This document shows positions 9,369-30,331 of a stretch of 42,943 nt of DNA, piece after piece. Position numbers and translations under genes: made by a program. The notes below the pieces were generated by a model. It was not told where the DNA came from and searched no databases. It saw only the letters and a program-made list of their open reading frames with translations. Origin of the DNA: Paracoccaceae bacterium (GTDB lineage: Bacteria; Pseudomonadota; Alphaproteobacteria; Rhodobacterales; Rhodobacteraceae); contig JAIXPH010000005.1 in the NCBI GenBank assembly GCA_027486345.1, positions 1-42,943 on the forward strand. The letters are read 5' to 3'. Positions within the stretch are counted from its first letter, which is position 1. Each line of letters begins with the position of its first letter.

Positions 9369-9391
9369 CCGCGCATCCTTCGCCCAACGCC

Positions 9392-9448: not shown

Positions 9449-9449
9449 G

Positions 9450-10586: not shown

Positions 10587-10990
10587 CTTATACCCGCCAC
10601 ATCCGCATCGAGTTCAACCACTGTGACCCGGCGGGGATCGTCTTTTATCCGCGCTATTTCGAGATGACGAATTCCGTCTGCGAAAACTTCTTCCGCGAGG
10701 TGGTGGGCTATTCCTATCACGCCATGATGGATGACGGCATTGGCGTGCCGACCGCGCGGATCGAGACGGATTTCAAAGCGCCCTCCCGGCTGGGCGATGT
10801 GCTGGATTGGGCGCTGGTGGTGGAACGGTTGGGCGGGTCCTCGGTGACCTTCCGGCTGGACGCCACCTGTGACGGGGCCGCGCGGGTGACGGTGCGCCTG
10901 ACCCTTGTCTGGCTGGGCCCGGATCATCGCCCCAGCCGCTGGCCCGACCGCATCCGCGCCACCCTTGCCGCGCATCAGGAGCAATCATGA
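10583..10990 (+). CDS. 4-hydroxybenzoyl-CoA-thioesterase-like hotdog protein
   Basis: 135 residues. The signature [17 protein letters not shown] (about 13-29) contains the Asp used by 4HBT/YbgC-type acyl-CoA thioesterases. It hydrolyses a CoA thioester to free acid and CoA. In this operon it may release a pathway product or rescue CoA from a dead-end aryl-CoA. It is coupled to both neighbours by 4-base overlaps. Confidence 0.87.
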
Positions 10991-13663: not shown

Positions 13664-14779
13664 TCAATGCGCCGCGATCCGGGCGAGGGTCTTGGCGATT
13701 TCCTGATCATTCTTTTTGAGATGATCCGCGATGAAGGCCAGATCGGCCGCGCCGAGGGACTTGCCGGACAGCAGCCGCCCCAGAATCTCGGGTTGATAGA
13801 AACGCAGGGCCGCGGACAGGACCAGCGCCTCTTCCTTGAGATTGGCACTGGTGCTGGGGGAACAGATGTCCGTGACATTGTCGGACCCCATCCGGATCTG
13901 CACGCCCCGCGCCAGAAGCTCCAGCACGCGCGGGATGCAGTTCGAGGTCGGAGAGGTCAGCGGCCGCAGCATCCGCATCGCCAAGGCCGCCGAAGGGCAG
14001 GTGATCACGCCGATTTTCAGCTCTGCCATCGCATCGGCCAGACGCAGGAAGCGGTCTTCGTCATAGGTGGTTGGCGACACGACATGCACGGCCCAAACCA
14101 TGGGCTCACCGGTCGGAGAGGTGGGGGCCCCATAGCGGCGCACCGCTTCGACCAATTGCTCCGTCCCGCTTTCCGAGCTTTCGAACCGCTGGTCGGTATG
14201 CACATGCAGCATCATCCCGAGAGTCTGGGACAGTTCCAGCATGCGGCGGCAATGTTCCATGAAGCCGATGTGGCTCGGGTAATGGTGGGTGTCGTCCGCT
14301 TCGGGCAGACAGCCGATGAAATCCGCCTGCTTCGCCCCTTCGACAAAGATCTCCCAGCGTTCGGGTTCCGCATCGTCAAAACCGAAGGGCGTATAGGCGG
14401 CAAGGCGCAGATCAATCCGGTCGCGCCATTTGGCCTTCAGGTCGCGCATCCATGCCATGCCGTTCAGGCCGACCCGATCCGCCGTGACATCCACCATCGT
14501 ATCGGCGCGGACGGTGTTGACATCGACCATGTCCTGCAAGGTCTGTTCGACCCGTCCGACATAATCGTCCCGATCAAAGGCCGGTCCGGCATGGATATCG
14601 GCGATCATGGAATGCTTCCGGCTGAGCGAGATGTGGAAATCCTCGGTCACCCGATGTTCGACGCCGGCGAAATAGCGGTCATCGAAGGTGCCTGCCCGAT
14701 CCAGATGCAAATGCGCGTTGAACATGCCCCCTTCGCGCTCGACGGTTTCGTTCAAACGTTTGTGCCAAATGCCGGTCAT
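13664..14779 (-). CDS. Amidohydrolase-superfamily protein, cytosine-deaminase-like
   Basis: 371 residues. Metal-binding landmarks follow the cytosine deaminase/AtzC plan: HLHLD (residues 23-27), HVHTDQ (His about 194), AVHVVS and MGSDNVTD. In Escherichia coli cytosine deaminase the second block reads HCDE, with Glu as the proton shuttle; here the residue is Gln. The following aspartate block is GSDN instead of GHDD. The fold and metal site look kept but catalysis may differ from simple deamination. The ATG overlaps the stop of the condensation-protein gene as ATGA, so it is coupled to the assembly-line operon and likely modifies its substrate or product. Confidence 0.8.
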   Translation of the reverse strand: MTGIWHKRLNETVEREGGMFNAHLHLDRAGTFDDRYFAGVEHRVTEDFHISLSRKHSMIADIHAGPAFDRDDYVGRVEQTLQDMVDVNTVRADTMVDVTADRVGLNGMAWMRDLKAKWRDRIDLRLAAYTPFGFDDAEPERWEIFVEGAKQADFIGCLPEADDTHHYPSHIGFMEHCRRMLELSQTLGMMLHVHTDQRFESSESGTEQLVEAVRRYGAPTSPTGEPMVWAVHVVSPTTYDEDRFLRLADAMAELKIGVITCPSAALAMRMLRPLTSPTSNCIPRVLELLARGVQIRMGSDNVTDICSPSTSANLKEEALVLSAALRFYQPEILGRLLSGKSLGAADLAFIADHLKKNDQEIAKTLARIAAH

Positions 14780-17541
14780 TTTGATCCTGCCTGCGTGCGA
14801 TTGGAAGGGATGTTCAGGGTGGACAGGGCTGGCGTCGCGTCCCGCGCTCTGCGGATCATCGCAGAGAACTCATGGACATGCGGTTCGACAAAGAACTGTC
14901 CGTGTTTGCCGCCGACCAGTTCGATCGAAAAGCGGCCCGTGTAATAGGTGGCGAATTCCGCATGCGGATTGAGACTGCCCTTGAAGGGATTGCGGTCGCT
15001 TTCCCGTCCGAAGCTGAGCAGCACATCGCCGTCATACCGCTCTGGCACCATTTTCTCGTGCAGCACCAGAAGCGCGATCTCGCGGCCCGCCAGACGCAGA
15101 TGCTGCGCCAATTGAAAGGCGATCACGGCCGCCTGACAGTTGCCGCCGATGAACATCGGGCCGTCGCCATGAAGTTCGGCAATCTCTGCGGCATACATCG
15201 CGGCCAGCTTGCGGATGTTGTCGGGCGATTTGACCATGACCTTGTGGCCCGAACGCAGGCCATAGACCGGTTGATCCGCCCCCAGATGCAGGGCGATCTG
15301 GTCCAGTTCGGTTTCGTTCTGCAAGCACCAGAACAAGGGCACGCGGGGGCCATCCGTCTGACGTCCGACGATGATGGAGTCGGGCCGATGCCGCACACCC
15401 TGCCAGATGCCGGTGTAGCGCCGCAGCGCATCGACGATGTCGGGCGCCAGCCCCCCCGTCTGCGCCGCATCATCGCTGGGCGGGGCCTCTTCTGCCGCCG
15501 TAGCCACCTGCGCCAGATGCCGGATGGTCCGGGCCTGCACGAGGGCCGAGGGCGGCAGGCGCCGCCCGGTCAGGGCGGTGACATCGGCCCACATCCGCAC
15601 CGCAAGCAGGGAATGGCCGCCAAGGTCCCGAAAATCCTCGTCCCGGCCGATCGGGCGGTCCAAGAGCAACAGCGACTGCCATATCTTGGCGATGGCCCGC
15701 TCCATCTCGGTGCAGGGCAGGTCTTCGAGCGCGGGGGGATCGTCCTGCGCCGCCATATCCTGAAGGGCGCGCCTGTCCACCTGCCCTGCCCCATCCCGGG
15801 GCAGCACGGGGCGGCTTTTCAGACGGATCGGCGGCAGCGCCGCGCCAAGCCGGGCCCGCACCGTCTGCATCAGATCGGGCAGACCGGCGCGGTGATCCTC
15901 GTTCAGCGTCAGGCAGGCGAAGATGCCGCCCACATCGGGGGTCGCAACCGCTGCGGCCTCGTTGACCGACGGGTCCTCGGCCAAAGCCTCGGCGACCCGG
16001 GCGGCGGTCACGGCAGGCGCAATCACCGCATCGACCGGCATCGACCACCCTGCACCGGCAACCGCCACAAGCGCCCTGTCCAGCGCCTGACCAAGCCAGC
16101 GGGCCGAGGCCGCGTCCAGCGTTCCTGCCGCCCAATCCATCCGCAGGGAGATGTCGGATTTATCCGCCTCGAACTGGAGGGACAGATCGAAATCATTGGC
16201 CGGGCGTTCCAGCGCAACGGGGGTCGCCGCATAGCCTTGCACGGCGCGGGGGGCTGCACGTTCCTGCCAACCCACCATCAAGCGATTGGTCGGGCAGCGC
16301 CGCAGCGAAGGCTGGCCGAAAAGAGCGGACCCCGGCAGGAACCGGTGATCATTCGCCCCCAACAGGGTCTGCGCGACCTGACCCGCAACGTCGGCCACCG
16401 TGTCGGCGCCGCGGATGTCGACAGGCAGCGGCAGGACGCGGCTCAGGTAGCCCAGCGTCGTCGCCGCCTCGATCCGGTCACGGTTGAGGACGGGGGTGCA
16501 GAGCAGGATCTTGTCCTGCGCCGTCAGCGACCGCAGGGCCAGACAGGCCGCCGCGATGGCGAGGGCCCCGACGGGCAGACGCGCCTCGTGCGCCCGCGCC
16601 CGCATCGCGGCACCAAGGTCGGGCGACAGGGTCAGGCGGTGCCATCCGCTCTCGCTCTCCTCCGCGCTGTCAGGGCGCGAGGGTAGAGCCGTCGCGGGCC
16701 ATGGTGCGTCAAGGCGCTGCTGCCACCATGCCTGCGCGGCCTTGCCATGCGCGCCGGTCACGCAGTCGCGTTCGTGCTGCGCGAAAGCACCGATCTGCCA
16801 TCCCCGGATCTGGCGCGACACTTCGGCACCGGCAGCAAGCTCCCGGTCGATCTGGGTCAGTTCGGACAGGAAGGCATCGCGGGAGAACCCGTCAAGGATC
16901 AGGTGGTGAAAGACCCAAGCCACAAGCGCGCGGCCATTGGCAAAGGTCAGCACCATCGCACGCCACAAGGGGCCGTCCTCAAGATCAAAGGGACGGGCCA
17001 GAAAGTCACGCAACGCCGCGGTCGCCGCAGGGGGCAGGTCATCCGCCGTGCCGTCAAAGGCGGGCAGATCGATGACCGCATCCCATCCCAACCGTGCCCC
17101 GCGCGGACGCAGGCGCAGGGTGCCGACATCTGCGGGGAAGCATTGGCGCAGGGCATCGTGCCGATCCTGCATCACGTTTTGCGCGTCCAGCAGGCGGAAC
17201 ACATCCACCGGCCCGTCAACCAGCAGCGCAAAGGGCACGTGATAGCGCGCATCCGCCACATGGGCGCGGGCCATCGGCAAAAGCGCCTCTTGCGCCAAGG
17301 TCAGCACCGGATCATCCGGCACCGCCGCCGCCTGTGCCGCAGGGGCAGCAGGCGCGGAAAGGACGGCGATCAGGTCCTCCCGCCGCGCCTTGATCCGGGC
17401 GCGCAGGTCATCGGTCAGGACCGACCCTTCGACATTGACGAACAGCCGCCCGTCCTGTGTCCAGAGCTTGACGCCCGCGCGGATCAGATCATCCAGCAGC
17501 GCCAGCGTTTCGGACTGTGTTTCGGCCTGTGTCACGGTCAT
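14776..17541 (-). CDS. Non-ribosomal peptide synthetase: docking-condensation-(relic A)-carrier-thioesterase
   Basis: 921 residues from the ATG at 17541, which overlaps the upstream stop as ATGA. Domains in order: a TubC-type docking domain (about 10-60, LLDDLIRAGVKLWTQDGRLF); a condensation domain (about 85-500) with RHDALR and the catalytic HHLILDG at about 212-218; a fragment resembling only the C-terminal subdomain of an adenylation domain (about 525-600), whose A10-like motif reads GQVDRRAL with Gln where the catalytic Lys belongs; a carrier domain with LGGHSL (Ser about 644); and a thioesterase with GGNCQAA (Cys about 802) and GKHGQFF (His about 880). There is no adenylation core, so its carrier must be charged in trans or the acceptor is free. 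Confidence 0.88.
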   Translation of the reverse strand: MTVTQAETQSETLALLDDLIRAGVKLWTQDGRLFVNVEGSVLTDDLRARIKARREDLIAVLSAPAAPAAQAAAVPDDPVLTLAQEALLPMARAHVADARYHVPFALLVDGPVDVFRLLDAQNVMQDRHDALRQCFPADVGTLRLRPRGARLGWDAVIDLPAFDGTADDLPPAATAALRDFLARPFDLEDGPLWRAMVLTFANGRALVAWVFHHLILDGFSRDAFLSELTQIDRELAAGAEVSRQIRGWQIGAFAQHERDCVTGAHGKAAQAWWQQRLDAPWPATALPSRPDSAEESESGWHRLTLSPDLGAAMRARAHEARLPVGALAIAAACLALRSLTAQDKILLCTPVLNRDRIEAATTLGYLSRVLPLPVDIRGADTVADVAGQVAQTLLGANDHRFLPGSALFGQPSLRRCPTNRLMVGWQERAAPRAVQGYAATPVALERPANDFDLSLQFEADKSDISLRMDWAAGTLDAASARWLGQALDRALVAVAGAGWSMPVDAVIAPAVTAARVAEALAEDPSVNEAAAVATPDVGGIFACLTLNEDHRAGLPDLMQTVRARLGAALPPIRLKSRPVLPRDGAGQVDRRALQDMAAQDDPPALEDLPCTEMERAIAKIWQSLLLLDRPIGRDEDFRDLGGHSLLAVRMWADVTALTGRRLPPSALVQARTIRHLAQVATAAEEAPPSDDAAQTGGLAPDIVDALRRYTGIWQGVRHRPDSIIVGRQTDGPRVPLFWCLQNETELDQIALHLGADQPVYGLRSGHKVMVKSPDNIRKLAAMYAAEIAELHGDGPMFIGGNCQAAVIAFQLAQHLRLAGREIALLVLHEKMVPERYDGDVLLSFGRESDRNPFKGSLNPHAEFATYYTGRFSIELVGGKHGQFFVEPHVHEFSAMIRRARDATPALSTLNIPSNRTQAGSK

Positions 17542-20357
17542 ATCTCTACTGTCACCCTGCCCTGCGCCGTCGCGATGGTTTCGCCATGGCCAAGCATCGC
17601 CGCCCGTTGCAGCGTCGCCACGCAAAGGAAATCGCGGTCATAGTGGTCCAGCCATTTCTGGGCGGCACCGGCTTCGATCCCGGAGTGGCGGTGGAACTTC
17701 GGGTCACCGATCATCCGCGATTGCGGGTGCAGGCCATCGGTCATGCGGACAGACACCTGCCCCTGCGGCTCCAGCATGACCGGATCAAACTCCAGCCCCA
17801 GCATCCGGCAAACCGGGGCCAAGGTCTCGGCCGGGCGCTGGACCAGATCCTCGTAGCGCAGATGGACATGGCGTGACGGATCGACCGTGGCCAGAAACGC
17901 CGCGATGGTCGTCTCGATCTGCCCCCACAGCAGTTCGGCCAGATGATGCGCCGCGAAGGGCGAGGGGTCAGTCACCGCCGGACCGGCCAGCCGTGGCCAC
18001 CACAGCTGATCCAGCCGCGCTTCCTCGAACGACCGGATCATCCCATAGGGATGGCGCGTCAGGTGAATGTAGAGCGGCCGATCAAAGCACGCCTCGGCCT
18101 TGGCCAAGGTCCGGGGATGCACCGCGTAAAACGGCGTCTTGTCCACCAGCAAACGGGGTGCCACCGCCTGTTGCAGCCGCGCATAAACCTCTCGGACATC
18201 AAGGTTTTGCGCCTGCCAGACGGCAACCTCCGCCGCCGCATCGGCGGCCGATACCCCAAAGGCCGCCATCACGGCGCGGGGCAAGCCTTCAAGCTGTGAC
18301 GCATGCGGACCACGGAACCACGCCTGCCGGTCTGCCATGTCCTGATGGGACAGAAGATACAGTTCCGGCGGCGCGAACAGCCCCGGATGCCCGGCCAGCA
18401 TCGCCCGCAGCAGCGTCGAGCCAGAGCGCGGCGCACTCAGCAGGAACACCGCCGGTCCATTGGTTGGGGTTACTGGACCCGCGCCCGTCCGGTCTGGCCG
18501 CGCCAGACTGCGCGCGAAGCGGTCTTGCTCTGCCGCTGTCAACGGCTGGCGGTCCCGGATGCCCTGCTGGACCTGACGGCCAAGAATGACCGCCGCCAGT
18601 TCGGGATAGCTTGCCCGCAGGAAGGACTCATACCGCGCGGGTGTGGGTGCTTCGTACAGGGACGAGACGTAAAGGATCGCGTCGCCCATCGCCTCTTGCA
18701 TCCGCGCCACGGCATGGGCGGCCTGCAAGGAGGTGCCGCCAAGCGCAAAGAAATCATCCTCCGCCGACAGGGATGGCAGGTCCAGCGTGGCCGCCCAGAT
18801 CTCGGAGATCCATGCCACGATCTTGCTCTTGGGGGCCGGGGCCACAGCGACGGGGCTAGCCTGCGCCACCTGTTTTGCCAAGGCCGACCGCAAGAGTTTC
18901 CCACCGGCAGAGCGCGGCAGGCGCGGCAGGACATGCACGGCAGAGGGCAGTTTGCCCTCGCCGAGGGCCTGCCGGACCGTCTGTCTGGCGACATGCGCGG
19001 CATCGGCCGGGGCACCCTGGCCCAGCACAAGCGCCACCGCGATGCTTTCGCCAAGCGACGGATGCGGCAAGCCAAAGGCCGCGACCTCTGCCACCCAATC
19101 CAGCGCGCTCAGCACGGCTTCGATCTCGGCCGGGGCGATCATTTCGCCGCCCCGGTTGATCAGATCCTTGATCCGTCCGGTCAGCCAAAGCTGGCCGTCG
19201 GCATCCAGATGGCCCAGATCCCCGGTGCGGAATCCAGTCTGGCCAAAGGCCGTCTCCGTCTCTGGCGCGGCGATATAGCCGGGCGAGACCTGTGCGCCCT
19301 GAACCACCACCTCGCCCGTGACACCGACCGGCAGGCTCTGCCCCGCGTCATCGCGAATGATGACGTCCAGAGCGACCGGACGGCCAACGCATCCGGGCGG
19401 CGACTCCGCCGTCTGGCTTGCGATGACCCCTGCCGTTTCGGTCATCCCGTAGATTTCCACGATGGGAACGCCGAACCCCTCTTGCGCACGGCGGCGGGTC
19501 GTCGCGGGCAAGGCCGCTGACACCGAACGCACCATCCGCAATCCGGGGGCATGTGTCGTCTTCGCGTCCGACAGCAGATCATCCATCATCGCCGGGGCAA
19601 GCTGCACCCATGTCGGGTGCAACTGCGATCCGGCCGCATAGGCCACGCGACTGTAGGCCCCGGCGATGATCACGCTGCCACCGGACATCAGCGGCGCGGC
19701 AATCAGGTCCCACAGGCCACCGATGTGAAACTGCGCCAACAGCGCCAGCGCCCGGTCAGACGGGCCGAGGTCATGGGCCGCGATCACCGCCTTGGCTGCG
19801 GCCACCAGATTTTCCCCCGTCAGGGGCACCAGTTTGGGCAGCGCCGTGGTGCCCGAGGTTTGCAGGATCAGCCTGCACTCCGACGGCACAGCCAGCGCAA
19901 CCGCCTTTTCAGCCAAGGGCGCGTCCTGCCGGGTGAATTTCACCGCGCCAATCGACGCCGATGCGTCCCATTCAGCCACGATCACCGGAACATGCGCGCC
20001 CTGCGCCACGTCCAAGGGCGCACAGGCCAGGCGCGGATCGGCCACCAGAACATCCACGCCCAATCGCGCCAGAGTGGCCGACAACTCTGCCGCCGTCATG
20101 GCCGGGTTCAGGGGAACCACGGTCCCAAACCGCATCAGGGCCAGCGCAATCAGCGCCGTTTCCGGCACCACCGGCATGAGAACCGCCATCACCCCCGTGC
20201 GACGGACCACCACGTGCCGCAGGTCCCGTTCGATCGCATCGATCGCGGCACAAAGATCGGCCCACAGCAGCGGCGCACGCCCCGGCGCGAGAATGGCAGG
20301 CGCGTCAGGACTGCGCAGAGACCATCCGCGCAGGCTGGTTTCAAAAGCCTCGATCAT
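17538..20357 (-). CDS. Adenylation-carrier-sulfotransferase assembly-line protein
   Basis: 939 residues. An adenylate-forming domain occupies 1 to about 500 (LILQTSGTTALPK near 160; FHIGGLWD near 207; IYGMTETAG; GDLGHLDADG; SAGGKLLR as the A10 region). The FHIGG segment resembles acyl/aryl acid ligases and lacks the Asp that holds the amino group in amino-acid A domains. A carrier domain with LGGTSLQ (Ser about 543) follows. A sulfotransferase domain fills about 630-920, with the PAPS 5'-phosphosulfate loop SAPRSGSTLL and the 3'-phosphate motif LTRHPYGMIRS near 765. The C-terminus ends RVTVEI, a plausible beta-strand docking tail for the next protein's TubC-type domain. It overlaps both neighbours by 4 bases. 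Confidence 0.88.
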   Translation of the reverse strand: MIEAFETSLRGWSLRSPDAPAILAPGRAPLLWADLCAAIDAIERDLRHVVVRRTGVMAVLMPVVPETALIALALMRFGTVVPLNPAMTAAELSATLARLGVDVLVADPRLACAPLDVAQGAHVPVIVAEWDASASIGAVKFTRQDAPLAEKAVALAVPSECRLILQTSGTTALPKLVPLTGENLVAAAKAVIAAHDLGPSDRALALLAQFHIGGLWDLIAAPLMSGGSVIIAGAYSRVAYAAGSQLHPTWVQLAPAMMDDLLSDAKTTHAPGLRMVRSVSAALPATTRRRAQEGFGVPIVEIYGMTETAGVIASQTAESPPGCVGRPVALDVIIRDDAGQSLPVGVTGEVVVQGAQVSPGYIAAPETETAFGQTGFRTGDLGHLDADGQLWLTGRIKDLINRGGEMIAPAEIEAVLSALDWVAEVAAFGLPHPSLGESIAVALVLGQGAPADAAHVARQTVRQALGEGKLPSAVHVLPRLPRSAGGKLLRSALAKQVAQASPVAVAPAPKSKIVAWISEIWAATLDLPSLSAEDDFFALGGTSLQAAHAVARMQEAMGDAILYVSSLYEAPTPARYESFLRASYPELAAVILGRQVQQGIRDRQPLTAAEQDRFARSLARPDRTGAGPVTPTNGPAVFLLSAPRSGSTLLRAMLAGHPGLFAPPELYLLSHQDMADRQAWFRGPHASQLEGLPRAVMAAFGVSAADAAAEVAVWQAQNLDVREVYARLQQAVAPRLLVDKTPFYAVHPRTLAKAEACFDRPLYIHLTRHPYGMIRSFEEARLDQLWWPRLAGPAVTDPSPFAAHHLAELLWGQIETTIAAFLATVDPSRHVHLRYEDLVQRPAETLAPVCRMLGLEFDPVMLEPQGQVSVRMTDGLHPQSRMIGDPKFHRHSGIEAGAAQKWLDHYDRDFLCVATLQRAAMLGHGETIATAQGRVTVEI

Positions 20358-21169
20358 CGCGGCGCGAAGACCCCGCTTTCCCGTGCCTTGATCTCGGCCA
20401 TGACTTCGGTCAGGCGGGCGGGAACCTTGGCATCCGGCTTGATCCGCAAGCTAAAATTGAAGGACCGGCGCGGCAGCGACGTGGCGGCCGACAGCGGCGA
20501 GACTCCATGCCACGCCGCCTGCGTCTTGACGAAATAGAACAAACGGTTCGGCAAGAACCGGCACTTGGCCAGGGTTTCAACCTGCGCATGGTTCAGGAAG
20601 AAATTGCTCCAGTTTCTGTTCTGCGCGGGATTTTTCGCCGAATACACCTCGGTTTCGCCGCCCCATTCGGCCTGCCATCCGTCCGGCGCGAAATAGTGGA
20701 CGAAGATGAGGATCTTGTCGGTGGAGTCGCTGTGCGGCGGCAGCAAGACATTGGCGTCCATGCTGGAAAACTCGCACTGCCAATAGAGGTCATCCACGGA
20801 CAGCGCATTGCGCAGCGCAAACAGTTCCTGATAGCCGGGCTCAGCGGTTTCCGCCGGTGTGAGCGATCTGGCCCAATCAAAAGCCTGCGCCATTGTATTG
20901 CGGTCGGACAAAGCGTCCAGAAACCCGATCCAGTCCTCCGGCATCTCTTCCAGATGCGTCGGCATCGGCGGCGTCGTGAACAGGACGCGTTTTTTGCCCC
21001 GCCCAAGCGTGTCGCTGTTCTTGTTCTGATCCGGCGAGACGAAGGACGCGCTCAGCCGGTCATAGAGGTCCGCAGGCAGGAACCCATCCACCCATCCATA
21101 CGGATAGGGCTCCGTGCTGACATATGCTTCCTTACGGGCCCAGGGCATCCGGTCGATTAAATTCGACAT
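20354..21169 (-). CDS. 2-oxoglutarate/Fe(II)-dependent oxygenase
   Basis: 271 residues resembling the prolyl-4-hydroxylase-like group. The iron ligands are probably the HSD motif in LLPPHSDSTD (about 145-147) and the His of AWHGVSPL (about 221). An Arg in RRSFNFSLR would bind 2-oxoglutarate. A WGGETEVY segment lies between them, as in that family. It would hydroxylate a C-H position of a free or carrier-bound substrate, which the downstream sulfotransferase domain could then sulfate (inference). GGAGA precedes the ATG by eight bases. It is the first gene of a four-gene run joined by ATGA overlaps. Confidence 0.85.
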   Translation of the reverse strand: MSNLIDRMPWARKEAYVSTEPYPYGWVDGFLPADLYDRLSASFVSPDQNKNSDTLGRGKKRVLFTTPPMPTHLEEMPEDWIGFLDALSDRNTMAQAFDWARSLTPAETAEPGYQELFALRNALSVDDLYWQCEFSSMDANVLLPPHSDSTDKILIFVHYFAPDGWQAEWGGETEVYSAKNPAQNRNWSNFFLNHAQVETLAKCRFLPNRLFYFVKTQAAWHGVSPLSAATSLPRRSFNFSLRIKPDAKVPARLTEVMAEIKARESGVFAPR

Positions 21170-21376: not shown

Positions 21377-22018
21377 TTACATCACAACCACTGCAAGACT
21401 CTTGCCATCAACCACACAATACCGCCCCAAAACGGATGCGCCTTTTTGGAAACAGGCAATGTCCCTGATAAAGACCGCTTCAAACTGGTCCCCGCTCCAG
21501 TCAATCCGCAGGCCATCAAATCCGAAGACTGTCCTGCTTTTACCATATTGCGCCTTGAAAGCCGCTTCCTTGGCCACAAAAATCGACTTTGCCAAAAGTT
21601 CGGCTTCCGCGGCGGACTCAAGACGGGCAATCTCTTCGGCACAAAGCACCAAGGGCCAAAGGGATCGGCCAAGCGGCGTTGCGGGTTCAATGTCGATCCC
21701 GATGCCCGACACCCGCGCAGAGGGAACCACGGCCGCAAGGCAAACATCCGCGCAGTGCGTAATGGAACCCATCACCCCCATCGGCCATTGCGGCGTCCGA
21801 TCCGCTGTCATCGGAATCGCACAAGGTGGCAGTCCCAGCTCGGCCAACGCCAAGCGCGCAGCCTGTCGGCCCGCCGAAAACTCATGCTGCCGCGCGGGGG
21901 TCACGCCCGCCAAGGTTTCCTCGGGCCATGGGTCATGATGAACCCGCGGGTCTGTCATGGCGCAACCGGCCCGTGCAGGAAGCAAGTCACGCAACGCTTG
22001 CAAGATTATTTCAGACAT
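21377..22018 (-). CDS. 4'-phosphopantetheinyl transferase (EntD/Sfp type)
   Basis: 213 residues. Diagnostic motifs are FSAGRQAARLAL, GSITHC, GIDIEP (Mg-binding Asp/Glu) and SIFVAKEAAFK. These transfer the phosphopantetheine arm from CoA to a Ser of carrier domains. Clients in the window are the two carrier domains at 14776-20357 and the free carrier protein at 27216. It lies 207 bases upstream of the oxygenase gene on the same strand and probably has its own promoter. The start at 22018 has only a weak ribosome site; an internal ATG at 21958 would remove 20 residues and cannot be excluded. GC content is lower than in the flanking genes. Confidence 0.88.
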   Translation of the reverse strand: MSEIILQALRDLLPARAGCAMTDPRVHHDPWPEETLAGVTPARQHEFSAGRQAARLALAELGLPPCAIPMTADRTPQWPMGVMGSITHCADVCLAAVVPSARVSGIGIDIEPATPLGRSLWPLVLCAEEIARLESAAEAELLAKSIFVAKEAAFKAQYGKSRTVFGFDGLRIDWSGDQFEAVFIRDIACFQKGASVLGRYCVVDGKSLAVVVM

Positions 22019-22365: not shown

Positions 22366-24474
22366 ATGCCGATTTTTCGGGCGAACGGAAAGCTGATCTA
22401 TTTTGCCCATGTTCCAAAATGTGGGGGAACCGCAGTCGAAGTCTATTTGAAAGACCGGTTTGGTCCCCTCGCCTTTATGGATCAAACGTATTTCGGCCTG
22501 TCGCGGGATGCCAAGTGGAATGCGACATCGCCCCAGCATATTGATCAGCATTCTCTCAAACGCCTGTTTCCAAGTGATTTCTTCGATATCGTCTTTGCCG
22601 TGGTGCGCCACCCGGTCGAGCGTCTCATTTCCGAGTTCCATTTCCTGCGCGACAAGCTGCTGTCCATTCCGCAGGCCACCACGTTCACGGCATGGATTGA
22701 CACACTCCAAATGTCGGCGGCGCAAAACAGCTGGATGCACGACAACCACCTGCGCCCGATGAATGCGATCGTGCCGGACGGTGCCACCGTCTTCCGGCTG
22801 GAAGACGGCCTTGATCAGCTTGTCGGGTTTTTTGACGCAATCTCCGGATCGACATCGGGACCGCGCAACCTTCCGGTTGCGCTTGAACGGGACAGCGCGA
22901 TTCAGAAGGCGATCCCCACCCCGGACGACATCCATCTCATCGAAGCGCTGTATGCCGATGATTTTGACCGCTTTGGCTACCGGCGACAGACCACCGGCAC
23001 GCCGCACCGCCGGTCGGCCCCCCGTCCCGATCCGGCCCCCTCTGTGGCGGAGGCTGAGGCGGCCTTGCGCGACGGCATCCAGCATTTCGGGACCGGGCGG
23101 CTCGACCTGGCGGCAAAGGCCTTCCGGGTGGCGATTGACGGTCTTGGCGGCAATCCGGCACCGCGCGCGCTGTTTGCGAATGCGATCCTGCGTCAGGGCG
23201 AGGTCGGCATGGCGCTCTATCACGCCATGGTGGTGTTGCGGGATCACCCGGAGCACACAGACGCCCTTGTGGCCCTTGCCGGTGCTGCCTTGCGGATGGG
23301 CGATTTCGCCCTCTTGTCAAAGACGATTGCACAGCTGGACCGCCACCCGGCGCTTGCGGAGTTTGTTCGCCTGCTCAAGATCGCGGTCGCGACCGAGGAG
23401 GGCGATTTCGAGGCGGCCCTTTTCGATCTGGCGGATTGTCTGGAGAAATCGCCCGAAGACGCGATGGCGCTGGAGCTTTTCCATCTGGCGTTCCGCAAGT
23501 TCAGGGAGAACCCCGACAGGGCACGGTATCTGGATTTTCTGACCAGCCTGGGCTTGGACTTTCCGGACGGACCGCCCCTGACGGTTGCCCCGCAGGATGC
23601 GATTGTGCCGGGATCGGTCGATATCATCATTCCCGTGTACAACGCTCTGCCCGACCTGATCCGCTGCATCGGGTCCCTCCGAAAGTTTCCCTCCGCGGCG
23701 TTCCGGCGATTGATCCTTGTGGACGACTGTTCGGAAGCGGAAACGGCAGCATGGCTGCGCCAATACGCACAGGACCATGACGATGTGATCCTGACCCGCA
23801 ATGCGGAGAACCTCGGGTTCACAAGGACCGTCATGGCAGGTGTGGCCGAAAGTGAGGCCCCCTTCGCCGTGTTCCTGAATAGCGATACGGTCGTCACCGA
23901 GGGCTGGCTTGATGGGCTGCTCGTCACGATGGCCTCACGGCCAAATGCCGCCTTGGTGGGTCCGTTTTCCAATGACGGCTTTTACCAGACCATTCAGCCG
24001 GGCGCGGCTCCGGACGCGGCCAAACCCTTCAGCCGCCTGCTGAGCGATGCCGATCTGGCCGCAAACCGGGTGCGCGAGGTCAGCCGGAGATTGTCTCCGC
24101 CCATCCCGTTCCTGTCCGGGTTCTGCCTTTTGGTGCGGCGCGATGCGCTGGACCGTGTGGGCGGCCTCGACTGCGAAAACTTCCCCTTTGGATATTGGGA
24201 AGTGCAGGATGTCTGCCTGAAACTGATGGACCTGGGCTACCTGCCCCTGATCGCGGACTCGGTTTATGTCTATCACGCCAGCGGGGGCAGCATTTCCGAC
24301 CAGCGCCGCCTTGCGCTGGCGCGTGCGGGAAAGGCGGCGATCTGCGCCATCCACTCCGCGATCCGGGTCTATTGCGCGATCGAACTCTGCGCCAATGCGC
24401 CCGAGGTGCTCTGGCATCGCAAGGCCTGGGGTGAATTCGAGACGGCCGACTCGGCGCATTGGCAGGAAATCTAG
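22366..24474 (+). CDS. Sulfotransferase-(helical repeat)-glycosyltransferase 2 fusion
   Basis: 702 residues. Residues 1 to about 200 resemble a Sulfotransfer_2-type enzyme: the PAPS loop FAHVPKCGGTAVEVYL near residue 15 and the second motif VVRHPVERLISEF near 80. Residues about 215-390 are helical, TPR-like in spacing (LRDGIQHFGTGRLDLAAKAF). Residues about 420-650 are a GT-A family 2 glycosyltransferase (VDIIIPVYNALPDLIRCIGSL, LVDDCS, FLNSDTVVTEGWLDGLL, where NSD takes the DxD place). It could both glycosylate and sulfate one acceptor, either the assembly-line product or a surface glycan. It is transcribed away from the transferase gene and is 352 bases from the next operon, so a shared role is inferred from proximity. 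Confidence 0.8.
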   Translation: MPIFRANGKLIYFAHVPKCGGTAVEVYLKDRFGPLAFMDQTYFGLSRDAKWNATSPQHIDQHSLKRLFPSDFFDIVFAVVRHPVERLISEFHFLRDKLLSIPQATTFTAWIDTLQMSAAQNSWMHDNHLRPMNAIVPDGATVFRLEDGLDQLVGFFDAISGSTSGPRNLPVALERDSAIQKAIPTPDDIHLIEALYADDFDRFGYRRQTTGTPHRRSAPRPDPAPSVAEAEAALRDGIQHFGTGRLDLAAKAFRVAIDGLGGNPAPRALFANAILRQGEVGMALYHAMVVLRDHPEHTDALVALAGAALRMGDFALLSKTIAQLDRHPALAEFVRLLKIAVATEEGDFEAALFDLADCLEKSPEDAMALELFHLAFRKFRENPDRARYLDFLTSLGLDFPDGPPLTVAPQDAIVPGSVDIIIPVYNALPDLIRCIGSLRKFPSAAFRRLILVDDCSEAETAAWLRQYAQDHDDVILTRNAENLGFTRTVMAGVAESEAPFAVFLNSDTVVTEGWLDGLLVTMASRPNAALVGPFSNDGFYQTIQPGAAPDAAKPFSRLLSDADLAANRVREVSRRLSPPIPFLSGFCLLVRRDALDRVGGLDCENFPFGYWEVQDVCLKLMDLGYLPLIADSVYVYHASGGSISDQRRLALARAGKAAICAIHSAIRVYCAIELCANAPEVLWHRKAWGEFETADSAHWQEI

Positions 24475-24826: not shown

Positions 24827-26257
24827 ATGTTTCTGGATCGCCTTGTCTCTCTGTCCTCGCGGCAGGGGTTGGATGTCGCGGTGTCCGCGGCGGATCGTCG
24901 GGTGCTCTATCGCGACTTGCCCGCCTTGGTCATGGATGCGGCGGCGCGGCTTCACGCGGGGGGCGTCGGTCCGGGTCGGGTTGTCGCAATCACCGTCGCC
25001 GACGAGACCGAGCATCTGATCCTGGCGCTGGCCTTGCTGGCGCTGGGGGCGTGGCAGGTCAACACAGCATCCCATGAATCCGACGCGACCCGCGCGGATC
25101 TGGCGCTGCGGACCGGGGCCGATCTGCATCTGACCGACTGCCCGCACATCACCATCGCGGACCTGCCGCAGATTCGGTGGACCCCGGGCATGGCCCCCTC
25201 CGGCGCGCGGGCGGTCCTGCCCCAGGGCGGCGGTGGGGCGTTCTTCTCAACCTCGGGAACAACGGGACGGCAAAGCATCGTCAAGATGGACGAAGCCATG
25301 ATCGTGCGGCAGTCGCAGCGGAATTACATCCAGCCCTCGGACCGCTTCTTCAAGGCGGCATCGATGGAATTCGGCCATTCCAAGCGCAACCGGCTTTATG
25401 CCGTCTGGAGCGGGTCGCAAAACATGTTCCGCCCACCGCGCGACCCGGCAACGCTGTCCGCATGGTTGGCGGCCAGCGGTGCGACAATGGCCGATGTGTC
25501 CCGCGTCAATCTGACCGGGATGCTGTCGGATGGGGCCAGCACGCTGCCCGCCGACCTTGCCCTGCGCGCCGAGGGCTCTGCCATTCCGTCCGAACTGCGC
25601 CAGGCGATCATGGCGCAGGTGACGCAGAACTTTCACATTCGTTACGCCTCGACGGAAACAGGCCTGATCGCGGTCGCGGGTCCGCAAGACCATGTCATCA
25701 ACGGCGCCTTGGGCCATCCCCTGGACGACGTCGAGATCAGGATCGCCTCCGCCGAAGGTGCGCCTCTCCCGCGCGACGAGGTCGGCGAGATCTGGCTGCG
25801 CACGCCGGGGATCGTGCTGGGCTATTTTGACGATCCCGCGAAAACGGCACAACGCTTTCGCGACGGCTGGTTCCTGCCGGGCGACATGGGCAAGCTGGCG
25901 CCCGATGGTCAACTCGTGATGGTGGGGCGCAAGGACGACGTCATCAACCTGAGCGGGATCAAGATCTTCCCGGTCGAGGTGGAACGCGCCTTGGCGTCCC
26001 ATCCGGATGTGACAGCGGTGGCGGTGTTTCCCATTCCGTCTTCCGTTCACGGCCAGATCCCGGTGGCAGTGGTCGAACTTCGGCCAGAGGCCTTGGACCG
26101 TCAGGACGATATCCTTTTGTCCCTGATGCAAAGCGCACGGGCAGAGCTTGGCATCCGCGCGCCGCGCAAGGTGCTGGCCTGCGAGACGCTGCCGCGCAAT
26201 GCCATGGGCAAGATCGTGACACGCGAGCTTCTTCCTCTCTTTGAAAGACAGACATGA
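24827..26257 (+). CDS. Free-standing adenylate-forming enzyme (acyl-CoA/acyl-carrier ligase family)
   Basis: 476 residues, slightly short for the family. Core motifs: FFSTSGTTGRQSIVKM (A3), RYASTETGLI (A5), GWFLPGDMGKLAPDGQL (A7), VGRKDDVINLSGIKIFPVEVE (A8) and NAMGKIVTREL with the catalytic Lys intact (A10). It activates a carboxylic acid as the adenylate and passes it to a thiol. Its own operon contains a discrete carrier protein (27216), which is the likely acceptor in place of CoA. The stop overlaps the start of the TctC-like gene (ATGA), so synthesis is coupled to a solute-binding protein. It is not obviously the missing aryl-CoA ligase of the cluster at 5103, as it lies 13 kb away beyond an opposing operon. 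Confidence 0.83.
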   Translation: MFLDRLVSLSSRQGLDVAVSAADRRVLYRDLPALVMDAAARLHAGGVGPGRVVAITVADETEHLILALALLALGAWQVNTASHESDATRADLALRTGADLHLTDCPHITIADLPQIRWTPGMAPSGARAVLPQGGGGAFFSTSGTTGRQSIVKMDEAMIVRQSQRNYIQPSDRFFKAASMEFGHSKRNRLYAVWSGSQNMFRPPRDPATLSAWLAASGATMADVSRVNLTGMLSDGASTLPADLALRAEGSAIPSELRQAIMAQVTQNFHIRYASTETGLIAVAGPQDHVINGALGHPLDDVEIRIASAEGAPLPRDEVGEIWLRTPGIVLGYFDDPAKTAQRFRDGWFLPGDMGKLAPDGQLVMVGRKDDVINLSGIKIFPVEVERALASHPDVTAVAVFPIPSSVHGQIPVAVVELRPEALDRQDDILLSLMQSARAELGIRAPRKVLACETLPRNAMGKIVTRELLPLFERQT

Positions 26258-27219
26258 CCCAACGTTTTCGCCTCTGGCCGATGGCCGCACTCCTGTCGGT
26301 TTTCGCAAGCCAATCGCTGGCCCTTGCCCCCTGCAACGGTGCCGACGTCCGTATCATCAGCCCCCATGGCACCGGGATTTCCGACCTGATGGCGCGCGTC
26401 GTGGCCGAGCAACTTTCCGCACGCCTGGGCCAGACCTTCTATGTCGAGCCTGTCACCGGAGCGAGCGGGGCCGTCGGCGTCCGTGCTCTGGCCGAGGCCG
26501 CACCGGATGGCTGCACGCTGGGGATCGTCGGGCTTTCGACGCTCGTGGTCGCGCCGCATGTCGATGATGCCGTGGGCTATGATCCCTTGGCGGATTTCTC
26601 CAACATCGCCATGATCGGCGGCGGGCCCGCCGTTCTGGCGGTCAATGCCGGTTTGGGGATCACCACCTTTGACCAGTTGACCACGGCGATGACCTCGGGC
26701 GGGCTGGTGCCGACTTTGGCGACACCGGGCCGCACCACCATCACCGCCATCCTGCCAACCGCCGTCTTTGACCGGCTGGGCGTCAAGGCCGTGATCGTGC
26801 CGTTCAAGGACACCGCCGAAGCTGTGGTGGCCGCTGCTGACAAGAACGTTGACGCCGTCTCGCTCAGCTATTCGACCCTGCGCGAGCAGATCAAGGCTGG
26901 CGCGCTGATCCCGCTCTATGTCTCCAGCCCCGAGCGGCTTGCCGATCTTCCCGACGTGCCGACGCTGGCAGAACTGGGACAGGCCGATCTTGAGACGCTG
27001 ATCTGGTTCGGTCTTTCCGGCCCCGCCGGAATGGACCCCACCATGGTCGCAGAGCTGAGTGCTGCAACCACGGCCATCCTGTCGGATGCCAAGGCGTCGG
27101 AACCGCTGGTCAAGGCGGATGTCACGGTGCTGCCGCTGGATTCCGCGGGCATGACGGAAATGCTGGCGCGCCAGACCAAGGCCTATTCCGCTGCCATCGC
27201 GCAGATGACCTTTGAATGA
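26254..27219 (+). CDS. Tripartite tricarboxylate transporter solute-binding protein (TctC/Bug family)
   Basis: 321 residues. An N-terminal signal peptide is clear (Arg near the start, then AALLSVFASQSLALA). The mature part has the Bug-family pattern: SPHGTGISDLMARVVAEQL, then VTGASGAVGVRALAEAAPDG. Such periplasmic proteins bind small carboxylates and deliver them to the TctA/TctB membrane pair, which is present downstream. Two or three genes separate it from its partners: a carrier protein and a 16-codon frame lie between. The ligand is presumably the acid activated by the enzyme at 24827 (inference). Confidence 0.87.
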   Translation: MTQRFRLWPMAALLSVFASQSLALAPCNGADVRIISPHGTGISDLMARVVAEQLSARLGQTFYVEPVTGASGAVGVRALAEAAPDGCTLGIVGLSTLVVAPHVDDAVGYDPLADFSNIAMIGGGPAVLAVNAGLGITTFDQLTTAMTSGGLVPTLATPGRTTITAILPTAVFDRLGVKAVIVPFKDTAEAVVAAADKNVDAVSLSYSTLREQIKAGALIPLYVSSPERLADLPDVPTLAELGQADLETLIWFGLSGPAGMDPTMVAELSAATTAILSDAKASEPLVKADVTVLPLDSAGMTEMLARQTKAYSAAIAQMTFE

Positions 27220-27488
27220 CAGGTCTGGACGACAGCACACTGCGGCGGCACATCGCCGCCGCAGTTGAAGCCGCGCACCCGGTCACGGCGGCACGCGCCG
27301 CGCTGCTGGCGGCTTTTGTCCGAGCCGAAGGCGATTGCGCCTTGCATGCGCTGGACATGGACAGTCTTGCCCTGATGGAGTTCTGCATCGCGCTGGAACT
27401 GTCCATCGGTGTTGCCCTGACGCCAGAGGATGTTCAGGACGCCCAGAGCCTTGGCGGCGTTGTCGCCACCGTCTTGGCCCGGTCATGA
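27216..27488 (+). CDS. Discrete acyl/peptidyl carrier protein
   Basis: 90 residues. The phosphopantetheine site is DMDSLALMEF (Ser about 49), followed by helix CIALELSIGVALTPEDV and DAQSLGGVVATVLARS, which fits the four-helix carrier fold. The ATG overlaps the stop of the TctC-like gene. A carrier protein inside a TTT transporter operon is unexpected. It suggests that imported carboxylate is charged onto this protein by the ligase at 24827 and handed to the condensation protein or to another enzyme. The phosphopantetheinyl transferase at 21377 would activate it. Confidence 0.85.
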   Translation: MTGLDDSTLRRHIAAAVEAAHPVTAARAALLAAFVRAEGDCALHALDMDSLALMEFCIALELSIGVALTPEDVQDAQSLGGVVATVLARS

Positions 27489-27535
27489 CAGGCACCGCCA
27501 CCGACATGCGGATCGCGGCGAGGATCGCGCCGTGA
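27485..27535 (+). CDS. 16-codon linking reading frame, possible translational relay
   Basis: ATG at 27485 overlaps the carrier-protein stop (ATGA). The frame encodes MTGTATDMRIAARIAP and ends in TGA at 27533-27535, which overlaps the GTG start of the TctB-like gene (GTGA). It thus chains translation from the carrier gene to tctB. The peptide itself has no recognisable role. It may be only a relay, or the remnant of a frame change at the 5' end of tctB. Confidence 0.4.
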   Translation: MTGTATDMRIAARIAP

Positions 27536-27987
27536 CCGGGTCACGCATCGTTTCCGCAGTCCTGATGGCCGTCGGGCTGGCTGCCATGATGGCGGGGTTT
27601 CGCTCCGGCCTTGGCATGCCCTCCATGCCGGGGCCGGGGGCATGGACCCTTGCCGTGGGGCTTGGCCTATTTCTGTCCAGCCTTGCGTCGCTGAACCTGA
27701 CCAAGGGCGTCGCACCACCTCAGTCTCTTCGCGCAGGGGTTGTGCGGGTTCCGGCGGGTGTGCTGGCCTTTGCCCTGCTCTACCCCTTGGGCGGCCTGAT
27801 GTGTGCGGCCCTCGTCGCCGCTTGGATTGCGGCCGGTGCCTTTCCGGGGCCGGGGCGGCGCTGGGTTCTGCCCACCGTTGCCATCGCGACCCTGTGCCTC
27901 TGGGCCCTGCTCTCGTTCGAGTTGCACGTGCCGATCCGCCTGCTGCCCTTTGGCGGGAAACTGGGACTCGGGGGGATGCTGGGATGA
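27532..27987 (+). CDS. TctB-like small membrane subunit
   Basis: About 151 residues from a GTG at 27532 with GAGGA about eight bases before it. Four hydrophobic segments are visible: the N-terminal SAVLMAVGLAAMMAGF; AWTLAVGLGLFLSSLASL; VPAGVLAFALLYPLGGLMCAALVA, which is long; and VLPTVAIATLCLWALLSFELHV near the end. This matches the TctB subunit of tripartite tricarboxylate transporters, poorly conserved but identified by its place between TctC and TctA. It overlaps tctA by ATGA. No in-frame ATG gives a better start. Confidence 0.8.
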   Translation: MTGSRIVSAVLMAVGLAAMMAGFRSGLGMPSMPGPGAWTLAVGLGLFLSSLASLNLTKGVAPPQSLRAGVVRVPAGVLAFALLYPLGGLMCAALVAAWIAAGAFPGPGRRWVLPTVAIATLCLWALLSFELHVPIRLLPFGGKLGLGGMLG

Positions 27988-29459
27988 TGTCGGACATGAT
28001 GGCGGGGATGGCCACCGCGCTGGTGCCGTCCAATCTGCTCGCCTGTATCGTCGGGGTGACGCTGGGCAACCTGATCGGCGTCCTGCCCGGTCTGGGCCCG
28101 CTGGCGGCCATGTCGATCCTGTTGCCGCTGACCTATGGCATGGACCCGGGGGCCGCCCTGATGATGATGGGGGGCATCTGGTATGGCGCGGCCTATGGCG
28201 GTGCCATCACGGCCATTCTGATCAACATTCCCGGCACGGCCATGGCCTCGGTCACGGCGATTGACGGCTTTGCCATGACACAGGCCGGGCGTCCGGGGCC
28301 TGCGCTGCTGCTGGCGGCGCTCGGCTCCTTCTTTGGCGGCATCCTCGGGATTGTCGCCACGATGATCGCCGTGCCGGTGTTGTCGGTCCATATGCCCATC
28401 CTCAGCCCGGCGGAATCCGCCGCCTTGCTGATCGTCTGCCTGCTCGCCGGGGCGAGTGTCGGCGGCGCGGGCCTTGCGCGGGGCGCCATGATGGTCAGCC
28501 TCGGGGCCATGGCCGGGATCGTCGGCTCCGACCCCATGAGCGGGGATGCCCGCCTGACCTTTGGACTGGTGGCACTTGAGGATGGCATATCGCTGTCGGC
28601 GCTGGTCATCGGGCTGTTCGGCCTGTCAGAGATCATCCAGCGCGTCGGCAAGCCGCATGTGGTGCTGAAGAAAGCCCCCACCCGTCTGGCCGAGATGCGG
28701 CTGAACAAGGTCGAGCGAACCGCCCTTTGGGGCGCCAGCCTGCGCGGGGGCGGGATCGGCGCCGTGCTGGGGCTGTTGCCGGGTCTGGGGCCGACCCTTG
28801 CCAGTTATCTGGCCTATTCGGTCGAACAACGGCGCGGCACCAAGGGGCTGGGCCAAGGCGCGCCCGAAGGCATCGTTTCGCCAGAGGCGGCGAACAATGC
28901 CAGCGACCAGACCTCCTTCATTCCGACGCTCTTGCTGGGGGTGCCCGGCAGCGGCGCGATGGCCATCATCCTTGTGGTCCTGATGATCCACGGCCTCAAC
29001 CCCGGTCCGGCCTTTCTGGCGGACAACGGGCCGCTGTTCTGGTCCCTGATCGGCAGTTTCTGGGTCGGCAATGTGGTCCTGCTGATCCTGAACGTGCCGC
29101 TGATCCGCATCTGGACAACGCTGTTGCGGATTCCCCCGGCGGTGCTTTATCCCGCGACACTGGTGCTGATGTGCGTGGGCACCGTGGCGACCGGGCAGGT
29201 GTCAGACCTGTTCGTGCTGGCCGCCGCGGGCGTGGTCGCCGCCTTCCTGCAAGGCGCCGGGTTTCCTTTGCCGCCGGTGTTGCTGGGCTACATCCTCGGC
29301 CCGATCCTTGAAGGCCACCTGATCCGGGCCGCCCTGATCGCGCGCGGGGACCCGGCATGGCTTTTGGTCAATCCGGGGGCGCTGGCGATCCTGCTGGCAG
29401 GTCTGCTGCTCGCCTTGGTCTTTCGCAAACGCGGGCAAGGCCTGACCAAGGACGCCTAG
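27984..29459 (+). CDS. TctA-like large membrane subunit of the TTT transporter
   Basis: 491 residues, the usual TctA length, with about 11-12 membrane segments. The family signature near the N-terminus is GNLIGVLPGLGPLAAMSILL, followed by YGAAYGGAITAILINIPG. A second, internally repeated copy GAVLGLLPGLGPTLASYLAY lies near residue 260. TctA forms the sodium- or proton-coupled transport channel for carboxylates. I chose the ATG at 27984 because it overlaps the tctB stop and RBS-like GGGGGG lies upstream. It is the last gene of the ligase-TctC-carrier-TctB-TctA operon. Confidence 0.9.
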   Translation: MMSDMMAGMATALVPSNLLACIVGVTLGNLIGVLPGLGPLAAMSILLPLTYGMDPGAALMMMGGIWYGAAYGGAITAILINIPGTAMASVTAIDGFAMTQAGRPGPALLLAALGSFFGGILGIVATMIAVPVLSVHMPILSPAESAALLIVCLLAGASVGGAGLARGAMMVSLGAMAGIVGSDPMSGDARLTFGLVALEDGISLSALVIGLFGLSEIIQRVGKPHVVLKKAPTRLAEMRLNKVERTALWGASLRGGGIGAVLGLLPGLGPTLASYLAYSVEQRRGTKGLGQGAPEGIVSPEAANNASDQTSFIPTLLLGVPGSGAMAIILVVLMIHGLNPGPAFLADNGPLFWSLIGSFWVGNVVLLILNVPLIRIWTTLLRIPPAVLYPATLVLMCVGTVATGQVSDLFVLAAAGVVAAFLQGAGFPLPPVLLGYILGPILEGHLIRAALIARGDPAWLLVNPGALAILLAGLLLALVFRKRGQGLTKDA

Positions 29460-29599: not shown

Positions 29600-30298
29600 A
29601 TGACGAAGAAGGTATGCGTCATCACCGGCGCGGGGCGTGGCATCGGGGCGGCGGTGGCGCGGGAAATGGCCGCGCGCGGCTATGCCGTGGCGCTGATGTC
29701 GCCGTCCGAGAATTGCGAAACTCTGGCGGCAGAATTGGGCGGCGTTGCCCATCGCGGTGTGGCGCAAAGTGGGGATGACCTGAAAGGCATCGTCGATCTG
29801 GCGATGTCCAGTTATGGCCGGATTGATGCCGTGCTGAACCACACCGGCCATCCGCCGAAGGGGGATCTGCTGGAGATCACGGACGAAAACTGGGATCTGG
29901 CCAATGACATGATCATCAAGTCGGTGGTCCGCATGTCGCGCCTTGTGACCCCGATCATGGAGGCGCAGGGCGGTGGCTCCATCGTCAATGTCACCACCTA
30001 TGCGGCCTTTGAACCCTCGCTCTGGTTTCCCGCATCATGCGTTTATCGCGCAGGGGTATCGTCCTTTGCCAAGCTCTACGCCGATCGCTACGGTCCCAAG
30101 AACATCCGCATGAACTGCCTGATGCCCGGCTTTACCGACAGTCTGGATGTCGGCAAATTCGCCGACCTGCCCGCCCTGAAGCGCATCGCGCGGGTCGAGG
30201 AACAGGCCAAAGCGGCAGCCTTCCTGTTGACCGACGACTCCAGCTACATCACCGGACAAAGCCTGCGGGTGGATGGCGGGATCACGCGCAGCGTCTGA
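29600..30298 (+). CDS. Atypical SDR-family oxidoreductase
   Basis: 232 residues. The nucleotide loop TGAGRGIGAAVA and the C-terminal RVDGGITRSV are typical. The active site is not: the usual NxSS block reads NVTT, and the Tyr of CVYRAGVSSF is followed at the +4 position by Val instead of Lys. I recall SDR relatives with this YRAxxSSFxKLYADRY form, so it is probably a genuine subfamily. It lies 140 bases after tctA with AAAGG before its ATG and ends before a bidirectional terminator. It may belong to the biosynthetic or sugar region; neither is proved. Confidence 0.78.
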   Translation: MTKKVCVITGAGRGIGAAVAREMAARGYAVALMSPSENCETLAAELGGVAHRGVAQSGDDLKGIVDLAMSSYGRIDAVLNHTGHPPKGDLLEITDENWDLANDMIIKSVVRMSRLVTPIMEAQGGGSIVNVTTYAAFEPSLWFPASCVYRAGVSSFAKLYADRYGPKNIRMNCLMPGFTDSLDVGKFADLPALKRIARVEEQAKAAAFLLTDDSSYITGQSLRVDGGITRSV

Positions 30299-30305
30299 CC
30301 GAAAA

Positions 30306-30331
30306 GGGCCGGGGCGTCACCACCCCGGCCC
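30306..30331. terminator. Bidirectional terminator between SDR and sugar-binding protein genes
   Basis: GGGCCGGGG (30306-30314) and CCCCGGCCC (30323-30331) form a nine-base stem with an eight-base loop. On the minus strand the stem is followed by TTTTC, so it should end the ABC-importer transcript. On the plus strand it lies directly after the SDR stop. Confidence 0.7.

Follow-up and report, generated by a model that had tools for sequence, protein, structure and literature searches.

To our knowledge, few tripartite tricarboxylate transporters (TTT) have known substrates. Their tctCBA genes have been described together with regulators (tctD, two-component genes), in some cases with tctB placed after tctA, and with an amidohydrolase gene in the legend to Figure 2 of a TTT review (PMC5812351), the available text of which contains neither 'acyl' nor 'CoA' (0 occurrences each). 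Here we analysed a stretch of 42,943 nucleotides from a Paracoccaceae bacterium (contig JAIXPH010000005.1), in the following called the window, with a focus on an operon at 24827-29459 on the plus strand. As in tctCBA and bctCBA, it encodes TctC, TctB and TctA in this order, but it differs from them in a ligase gene located before tctC and in a gene for an acyl carrier protein (ACP) which splits tctC from tctB. Genes of a nonribosomal peptide synthetase (NRPS) type assembly line are found next to it on the minus strand. We give about even chances to the reading that a TTT importer was inserted into a carrier-protein loading module which feeds this neighbouring NRPS-type cluster. In the open-access literature no description of a TTT combined with an acyl carrier protein and a ligase was found, subscription journals being mostly outside the search.

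Regarding the logic of separate loading, the closest described case is syringomycin, where, according to the available excerpts of the sources, SyrB1 loads a unit, SyrB2 modifies it and SyrC carries it to the last module of SyrE, which has no adenylation (A) domain. The window shares with this system (SyrE module 9) an A-less condensation-carrier-thioesterase (C-T-TE) module, the placement of activation and carrier on other proteins and an iron/2-oxoglutarate (2OG) enzyme (PMC8949500, PMC3039948). Syringomycin has a separate unit-moving protein, for which an alpha/beta-hydrolase-like protein, m305, would be the window's candidate, and SyrB1 unites A and T in one protein, whereas ligase and carrier are separate genes in the window, with the transporter interleaved. 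By analogy, the window would resemble the syringomycin logic with an uptake step added. The sulfazecin enzyme SulM, again judged from excerpts, is similar in that its terminal thioesterase uses a Cys nucleophile and its cluster includes a sulfotransferase, but its modules have their own A domains and its thioesterase reads Gln-Cys-Asn where the window has Asn-Cys-Gln; in SulM and ObiF, thioesterases with Cys carry out the closure of four-membered rings (PMC11298585). Compared with the SulM cluster, the window's sulfotransferase is fused behind an A domain and a peptidyl carrier protein (PCP), and ligase, ACP and importer are added. Finally, TctC-type proteins of Variovorax have been studied for the uptake of the polythioester precursor 3,3'-thiodipropionate, a carboxylate serving as building-block precursor; the opening of the abstract mentions no carrier protein or assembly line (PMC8102459).

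Operon layout and the ligase-carrier pair

The gene order ligase, tctC, ACP, tctB, tctA had been proposed in an initial annotation made from the sequence, and it is borne out by the open reading frames and their Pfam matches, with all five genes on the plus strand:

24827-26257 (+): AMP-forming (ANL) ligase, 476 amino acids; Pfam AMP-binding 1.6e-27; A4-region motif F182-x3-K186-R187-x-R189
26254-27219 (+): TctC-type periplasmic solute-binding protein, 321 amino acids, signal-peptide-like start; Pfam TctC (PF03401) 5e-39
27216-27488 (+): stand-alone ACP, 90 amino acids, DSL motif at residues 49-51; PP-binding (PF00550) 1.3e-5
27485-27535 (+): 16-codon open frame between ACP and tctB, overlapping both neighbours; probably meaningless
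27532-27987 (+): TctB, small membrane subunit, GTG start with AGGA upstream; PF07331, E 1.4e-4
27984-29459 (+): TctA, large membrane subunit, 491 amino acids; PF01970, 1e-119

For the Pfam scan tctB was taken as 27535-27987 and tctA as 27981-29459. The G+C content by codon position is that of real genes in all five (third position 0.73-0.86, second 0.49-0.57). Four-base overlaps had been claimed throughout the operon; we read ATGA overlaps at three junctions (ligase/tctC, tctC/ACP and tctB/tctA), whereas the ACP stop (27488) and the GTG of tctB (27532) do not overlap and are separated by a gap of 43 bases. The 16-codon frame through which this step was supposed to run does overlap both neighbours, but 16-codon stretches are open at 79% of positions on the operon's plus strand and tctB has an AGGA of its own, so that the frame needs no role, and it was dropped as a coupling peptide. 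Promoter and terminator scans showed no excess over shuffled sequence.

The ligase was searched for in overlapping sets of 195, 385, 10, 398 and 295 genomes, with at most 4-8 first-look candidates scored per genome (all of them in the 10-genome set). Among the matches listed for the 195 relatives there was one clearly closer ligase, with 35% identity in genome G157, likewise adjoining a carrier-protein gene; loci were examined for the best matches, exclusive of G376, G130 and second matches without a locus. A profile made from two ligase sequences added G382, G285 and G300 from 385 genomes of the class, and a search of the family of G157, with matches in five of 10 genomes, added G505 and G503. 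All six genomes with the closest ligases, namely G157, G382, G285, G505, G503 (one genus) and G300 (another family), carry the ACP, the gene of which overlaps the ligase gene by 1-4 bases in the first five and is divergent in G300. Since the pair is conserved in the six closest other genomes, it is supported that ligase and ACP belong together. Within the PP-binding domain of the ACP (PF00550, 25.8 bits against a cut-off of 20.8) the DSL motif is present, and D49, S50 and L51 are invariant in an alignment of five sequences.

In five of the six genomes m305 adjoins the ACP; in the exception, G157, the ACP gene shares an overlap with a hydrolase frame of another kind (PF03959, 2.3e-4). No tctA, tctB or tctC match was found at E 1e-3 in the six stretches of 14.5-20 kb around the ligase-ACP pair. 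For each of ligase, ACP and m305 the window's copy is nearest to that of G300 (37, 35 and 29% identity, as compared with at most 35, 31 and 22% for the others), as expected if the three belong together. In G300 the ACP and ligase genes flank a dioxygenase frame of the TauD type (2.4e-30), and the NRPS operon of the window includes a 2OG-type oxygenase. The older unit was therefore probably ligase-ACP-hydrolase, and in the window tctC came to separate the ligase from the ACP, which is followed by tctBA, while m305 is located in the opposite operon. A genome search for the five-gene order, proposed in the initial annotation with the remark that confinement to this genome would refute its reading, was made through the ligase in the sets above and met the order only here, whereas the ligase-ACP pair recurs in six genomes.

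Searches of the phylum (398 genomes) and of the window's family (295 genomes) brought up no further ligase copy with such an ACP. Of the 385 genomes of the class, 22 have a ligase match of E 1e-50 or better, and a check of 32 loci and stretches found a close ACP only in the window's genome, G157, G382, G285 and G300. A plasmid search with the ACP protein gave no match. Ligase matches in G812 (two), G871, G888, G949, G897 and G909 were set aside as other ANL proteins, with no tct matches in the stretches read; directly after the ligase in G909 comes a gene that matches a carrier protein, and a small carrier-like frame is found near a weaker ligase match in G314 (L052). One match each in G812 and G871 forms the start of a protein of ~1100 amino acids, which in G812 resembles a ligase-ATP-grasp fusion by eye. 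In the G812 locus (L078:7258-14711) this fusion adjoins a thiamine-diphosphate enzyme and another ATP-grasp protein, all judged by eye, which gives the locus the look of a small peptide or amide cluster of its own within the same family.

The ligase contains the columns expected of ANL enzymes, which we take to be the P-loop (SGTTG, S143-G147), the A5 motif Y-x-x-TE (Y273/T276/E277), the Asp and Arg of later motifs (D353, R368) and the catalytic Lys (K462). In the amino-acid A domains of NRPSs an Asp in the A4 region binds the alpha-amino group. As this Asp is missing from the ligase, its substrate is probably not an alpha-amino acid; in an alignment judged by eye, the column holds G in the window's ligase and L or N in its relatives. 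The motif K186-[KR]187-x-R189 is carried by all 7 proteins of the ligase family, defined as the window's ligase plus the six best matches carrying this motif, and K186 together with R189 occurs in 0 of 44 other ANL proteins (400-720 amino acids, E <1e-15, taken from loci already fetched and from the window's other A domain, one gene being counted twice).

Regarding the transporter, Pfam matches are strong for TctC and TctA, the latter spanning the whole PF01970 profile, and weak for TctB (22.5 bits against PF07331, below the curated cut-off of 29.1). The N-terminus of TctC is hydrophobic by eye, and among its relatives of solved structure (best 8.3e-28) are BugD, Bug27 and a protein that binds terephthalate. 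Judging from the family, TctCBA would mediate binding-protein-dependent carboxylate uptake. The best TctA relatives in the 195 related genomes are 44-45% identical; two further TctA copies in the same genome are only 39-40% identical, so that the set is no recent duplicate.

The minus-strand assembly line and the m305 family

An adjacent assembly line and a local phosphopantetheinyl transferase had also been proposed for this locus, and both are indeed present on the minus strand. The genes concerned, together with two neighbours of the five-gene operon on the plus strand, are the following:

12632-13549 (-): m305, alpha/beta-hydrolase-like, motif GTSGGG; in other genomes its homologue is the third gene of the ligase-ACP module
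13664-14779 (-): m371, cytosine-deaminase/amidohydrolase-like
14776-17625 (-): NRPS with TubC_N docking domain, condensation domain, C-terminal remnant of an A domain, PCP and thioesterase
17538-20357 (-): NRPS-like protein with adenylation domain, PCP and sulfotransferase
20354-21169 (-): 2OG-Fe(II) oxygenase-like gene; PF13640, 7.8e-7
21377-22018 (-): Sfp-type phosphopantetheinyl transferase
22366-24474 (+): sulfotransferase-TPR-glycosyltransferase 2 fusion, directly before the five-gene operon
29600-30298 (+): SDR oxidoreductase, starting 140 bases after tctA, possibly in the same operon

Besides the transferase gene at 21377-22018 the genome has one other PF01648 (phosphopantetheinyl transferase) match. 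Between the SDR gene and a sugar-type ABC transporter operon convergent with it there is a strong GC stem (30306-30331), with a T run on the minus side.

The NRPS translations contain the condensation motif HHLILDG and, in the motifs GGTS and GGHS, the serines of the two PCPs. In the condensation protein (14776-17625) there is no PF00501 match and only an AMP-binding_C remnant (residues 545-610, 17 bits), and because it has no adenylation core this condensation-PCP-thioesterase protein must be loaded in trans. The five-gene operon's ligase is a candidate for loading the A-less PCP, directly or via the ACP. The thioesterase of the same protein reads GGNCQAA in the translation, with a Cys at the nucleophile place where Ser is usual. 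For the A-PCP-sulfotransferase protein (17538-20357) no homologue of the same architecture was found in 121 relatives at E 1e-70, the listed matches covering A or A-PCP only.

Two independent arguments link the operons on the two strands. The first is that m305, which elsewhere is the third gene of the ligase-ACP module, is located in the window's NRPS operon. The second comes from three genomes of the same genus (G014, G003 and G008), in which homologues of the minus-strand protein m371 (46-47% identity) are found near A-PCP-hydrolase/thioesterase genes; beside the A-PCP-m305 genes of G014 and G003 there is also a sulfotransferase related to the N-terminal part of the plus-strand fusion 22366-24474, so that relatives from both strands co-occur. 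The loci in G014, G003 and G008 (17 kb each) contain no tct match and no separate ACP. From these neighbourhoods, the plus- and minus-strand operons look like one cluster, with the TTT importer built into its ligase-carrier module.

The m305 profile was made from four sequences including the window's, and BLAST matches to m305 are independent of it. In 385 genomes the search yielded 13 places, four of them the training sequences, and all nine others were fetched. At four of these nine a carrier-protein gene is located at or near m305, confirmed by Pfam in L148, L151 and L154 and weak (E 7.7e-5) in L155. GTSGGG is aligned throughout the m305 set and GTSxGG is found in most close members. In addition, the NRPS search, not the m305 search, revealed that two genomes of the window's genus encode proteins in which m305 is fused to A-PCP (L157:6261-8960 and L158:6209-9124) as a putative release or transfer domain with no match in Pfam, and in G008 (L159) a thioesterase with GGNCKGA takes the place of m305 behind A-PCP. 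Because of the carrier-protein neighbours and the fusions we read m305 as a protein that probably acts on carrier-bound acyl groups, as acyltransferase or hydrolase. SyrC, the unit-moving protein of syringomycin, is of the hydrolase fold. Both the module of ligase, ACP and m305 and the fusions of m305 to A-PCP point to a hydrolase family linked to carrier proteins; in the members scanned, no Pfam model reaches its cut-off.

Proposed import and loading, and alternative explanations

Starting from what is observed (the gene order, the conserved ties of the ACP to the ligase and to m305, the lack of an A core and the connection between the two strands), transport, substrate, loading and delivery may be pictured as follows. 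TctC, TctB and TctA would import one carboxylate, as known for the family, perhaps one with an extra negative charge; we would guess that an acid with a second negative group suits K186/[KR]187/R189 and a TTT importer alike. The ligase would form the acyl-AMP and load the phosphopantetheine of the adjacent ACP, as the conserved pair suggests. The carrier-bound unit may then be oxidised by the 2OG oxygenase and/or the SDR, and would finally either move on to the condensation-PCP-thioesterase protein that has no A domain or be released, m305 acting as a putative carrier-protein-directed acyltransferase or hydrolase. A transport-coupled precursor supply, as suggested in the initial annotation, is thereby favoured by the conserved ligase-ACP pair, by the appearance of the two strands as one cluster and by an NRPS protein in need of loading in trans; it is weakened by a five-gene order seen in one genome only.

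Several observations weigh against this reading. TTT genes together with this ligase family were seen in the window's genome only (overlapping searches, 195-398 genomes), and since the combination was not met elsewhere the transporter link rests on one genome. Neither of the weaker ligase matches, those in G812 (profile E 1.7e-93) and in G871 (6.0e-90), is adjoined by such an ACP or by m305. An R stands at the K186 place in 17 of the 44 other ANL proteins (16 of 43 without the double-counted gene), which makes the basic A4 motif weak evidence for an acidic substrate, and as proof of a dicarboxylate it was rejected on this ground. It is also conceivable that the ligase bypasses the ACP and itself loads the A-less PCP. 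As for m305, the window's protein has no Pfam match at E 10, the best PDB matches of the profile are non-significant (BioH-type esterases at 0.49 and 0.62, amid flavivirus methyltransferases at 0.61), Esterase is matched by a single relative, weakly and under the cut-off (L148, 0.0036), and five of the nine non-training places show no carrier protein (L149, L150, L152, L153, which ends at a contig end, and L156).

How often ligases and carriers occur near other TTT genes was judged from 49 background TctA loci, 44 of them hand-picked, mostly from the upper part of the relatives list and including two of the window's own genome, and five from a GTDB contig scan; some of these loci end at contig ends. 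Within 6 kb of TctA a gene of the ligase superfamily was found in 2 of the 49, a carrier protein in one (L112, by eye an ordinary fatty-acid AcpP) and both in none. The five loci of the GTDB scan (best 44% identity) had neither ligase nor ACP within 6 kb, and a plasmid search with ligase and TctC returned only general-family relatives below 40% identity.

That no second genome searched has the combination, and that related modules lack such a transporter in the stretches read, would be expected if the ligase and ACP serve the NRPS and the TTT imports an unrelated carboxylate, having been inserted by chance and kept through the shared message. We regard this as unlikely, though worth serious attention: tctC splits the ligase-ACP pair and overlaps either neighbour by four bases, tctBA follows close behind, and tctC and tctBA, though split, make up one complete set.

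In a second explanation, TTT and ligase form an uptake and degradation operon with a CoA ligase for an aromatic or dicarboxylic acid, in which the carrier is incidental. The 2 of 49 background loci with a ligase of the same superfamily are in line with it, as are such ligases near TTT genes in L065 and an operon of the salicylyl-CoA 5-hydroxylase type at the left end of the window. This degradation operon, however, is some 13 kb off, beyond the NRPS genes; the ACP sits between tctC and tctB; and in six other genomes the ligase is co-conserved with the ACP with no tct matches nearby. We therefore hold the catabolic explanation to be rather improbable. The left-end operon (5103-11394, plus strand) is of the salicylyl-CoA 5-hydroxylase/oxidoreductase type for aromatic acid breakdown, with SDR, enoyl-CoA hydratase and acyl-CoA dehydrogenase genes and, by eye, MarR-, thioesterase- and RidA-like genes.

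The initial annotation had also considered that the carrier protein regulates transport, an acyl-ACP sensing the activated substrate and modulating TctAB. Nothing but its position between tctC and tctB speaks for this, and the idea is weakened to the point of being very improbable by the same ACP family occurring six times with the ligase, with no TctA, TctC or other tct match in the 14.5-20 kb read, and by the lack of any suggestion of a membrane role among the features examined. Salvage, in which the TTT recovers the cluster's own released product or a fragment that ligase and ACP reactivate, is hardly credible either; in its favour, the hydrolase-like genes m305 and m371 could release a carboxylate.

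The conserved ligase-carrier-hydrolase module and its place in the cluster are a stronger and more general result than the transport link. Going further than insertion of an importer into the loading module, TTT, ligase and ACP might constitute the first transporter dedicated to carrier-protein loading, in which a translationally coupled system traps an environmental carboxylate as acyl-ACP and feeds it in trans to an A-less NRPS module via m305 as a new family of carrier-protein hydrolases or acyltransferases; this we consider possible, if doubtful on balance. The operon offers a direct route to one substrate for three proteins, as the TctC ligand, the ligase substrate and the ACP-bound unit should coincide. 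If the reading is true, this would be a natural product line fed from outside by a dedicated importer.

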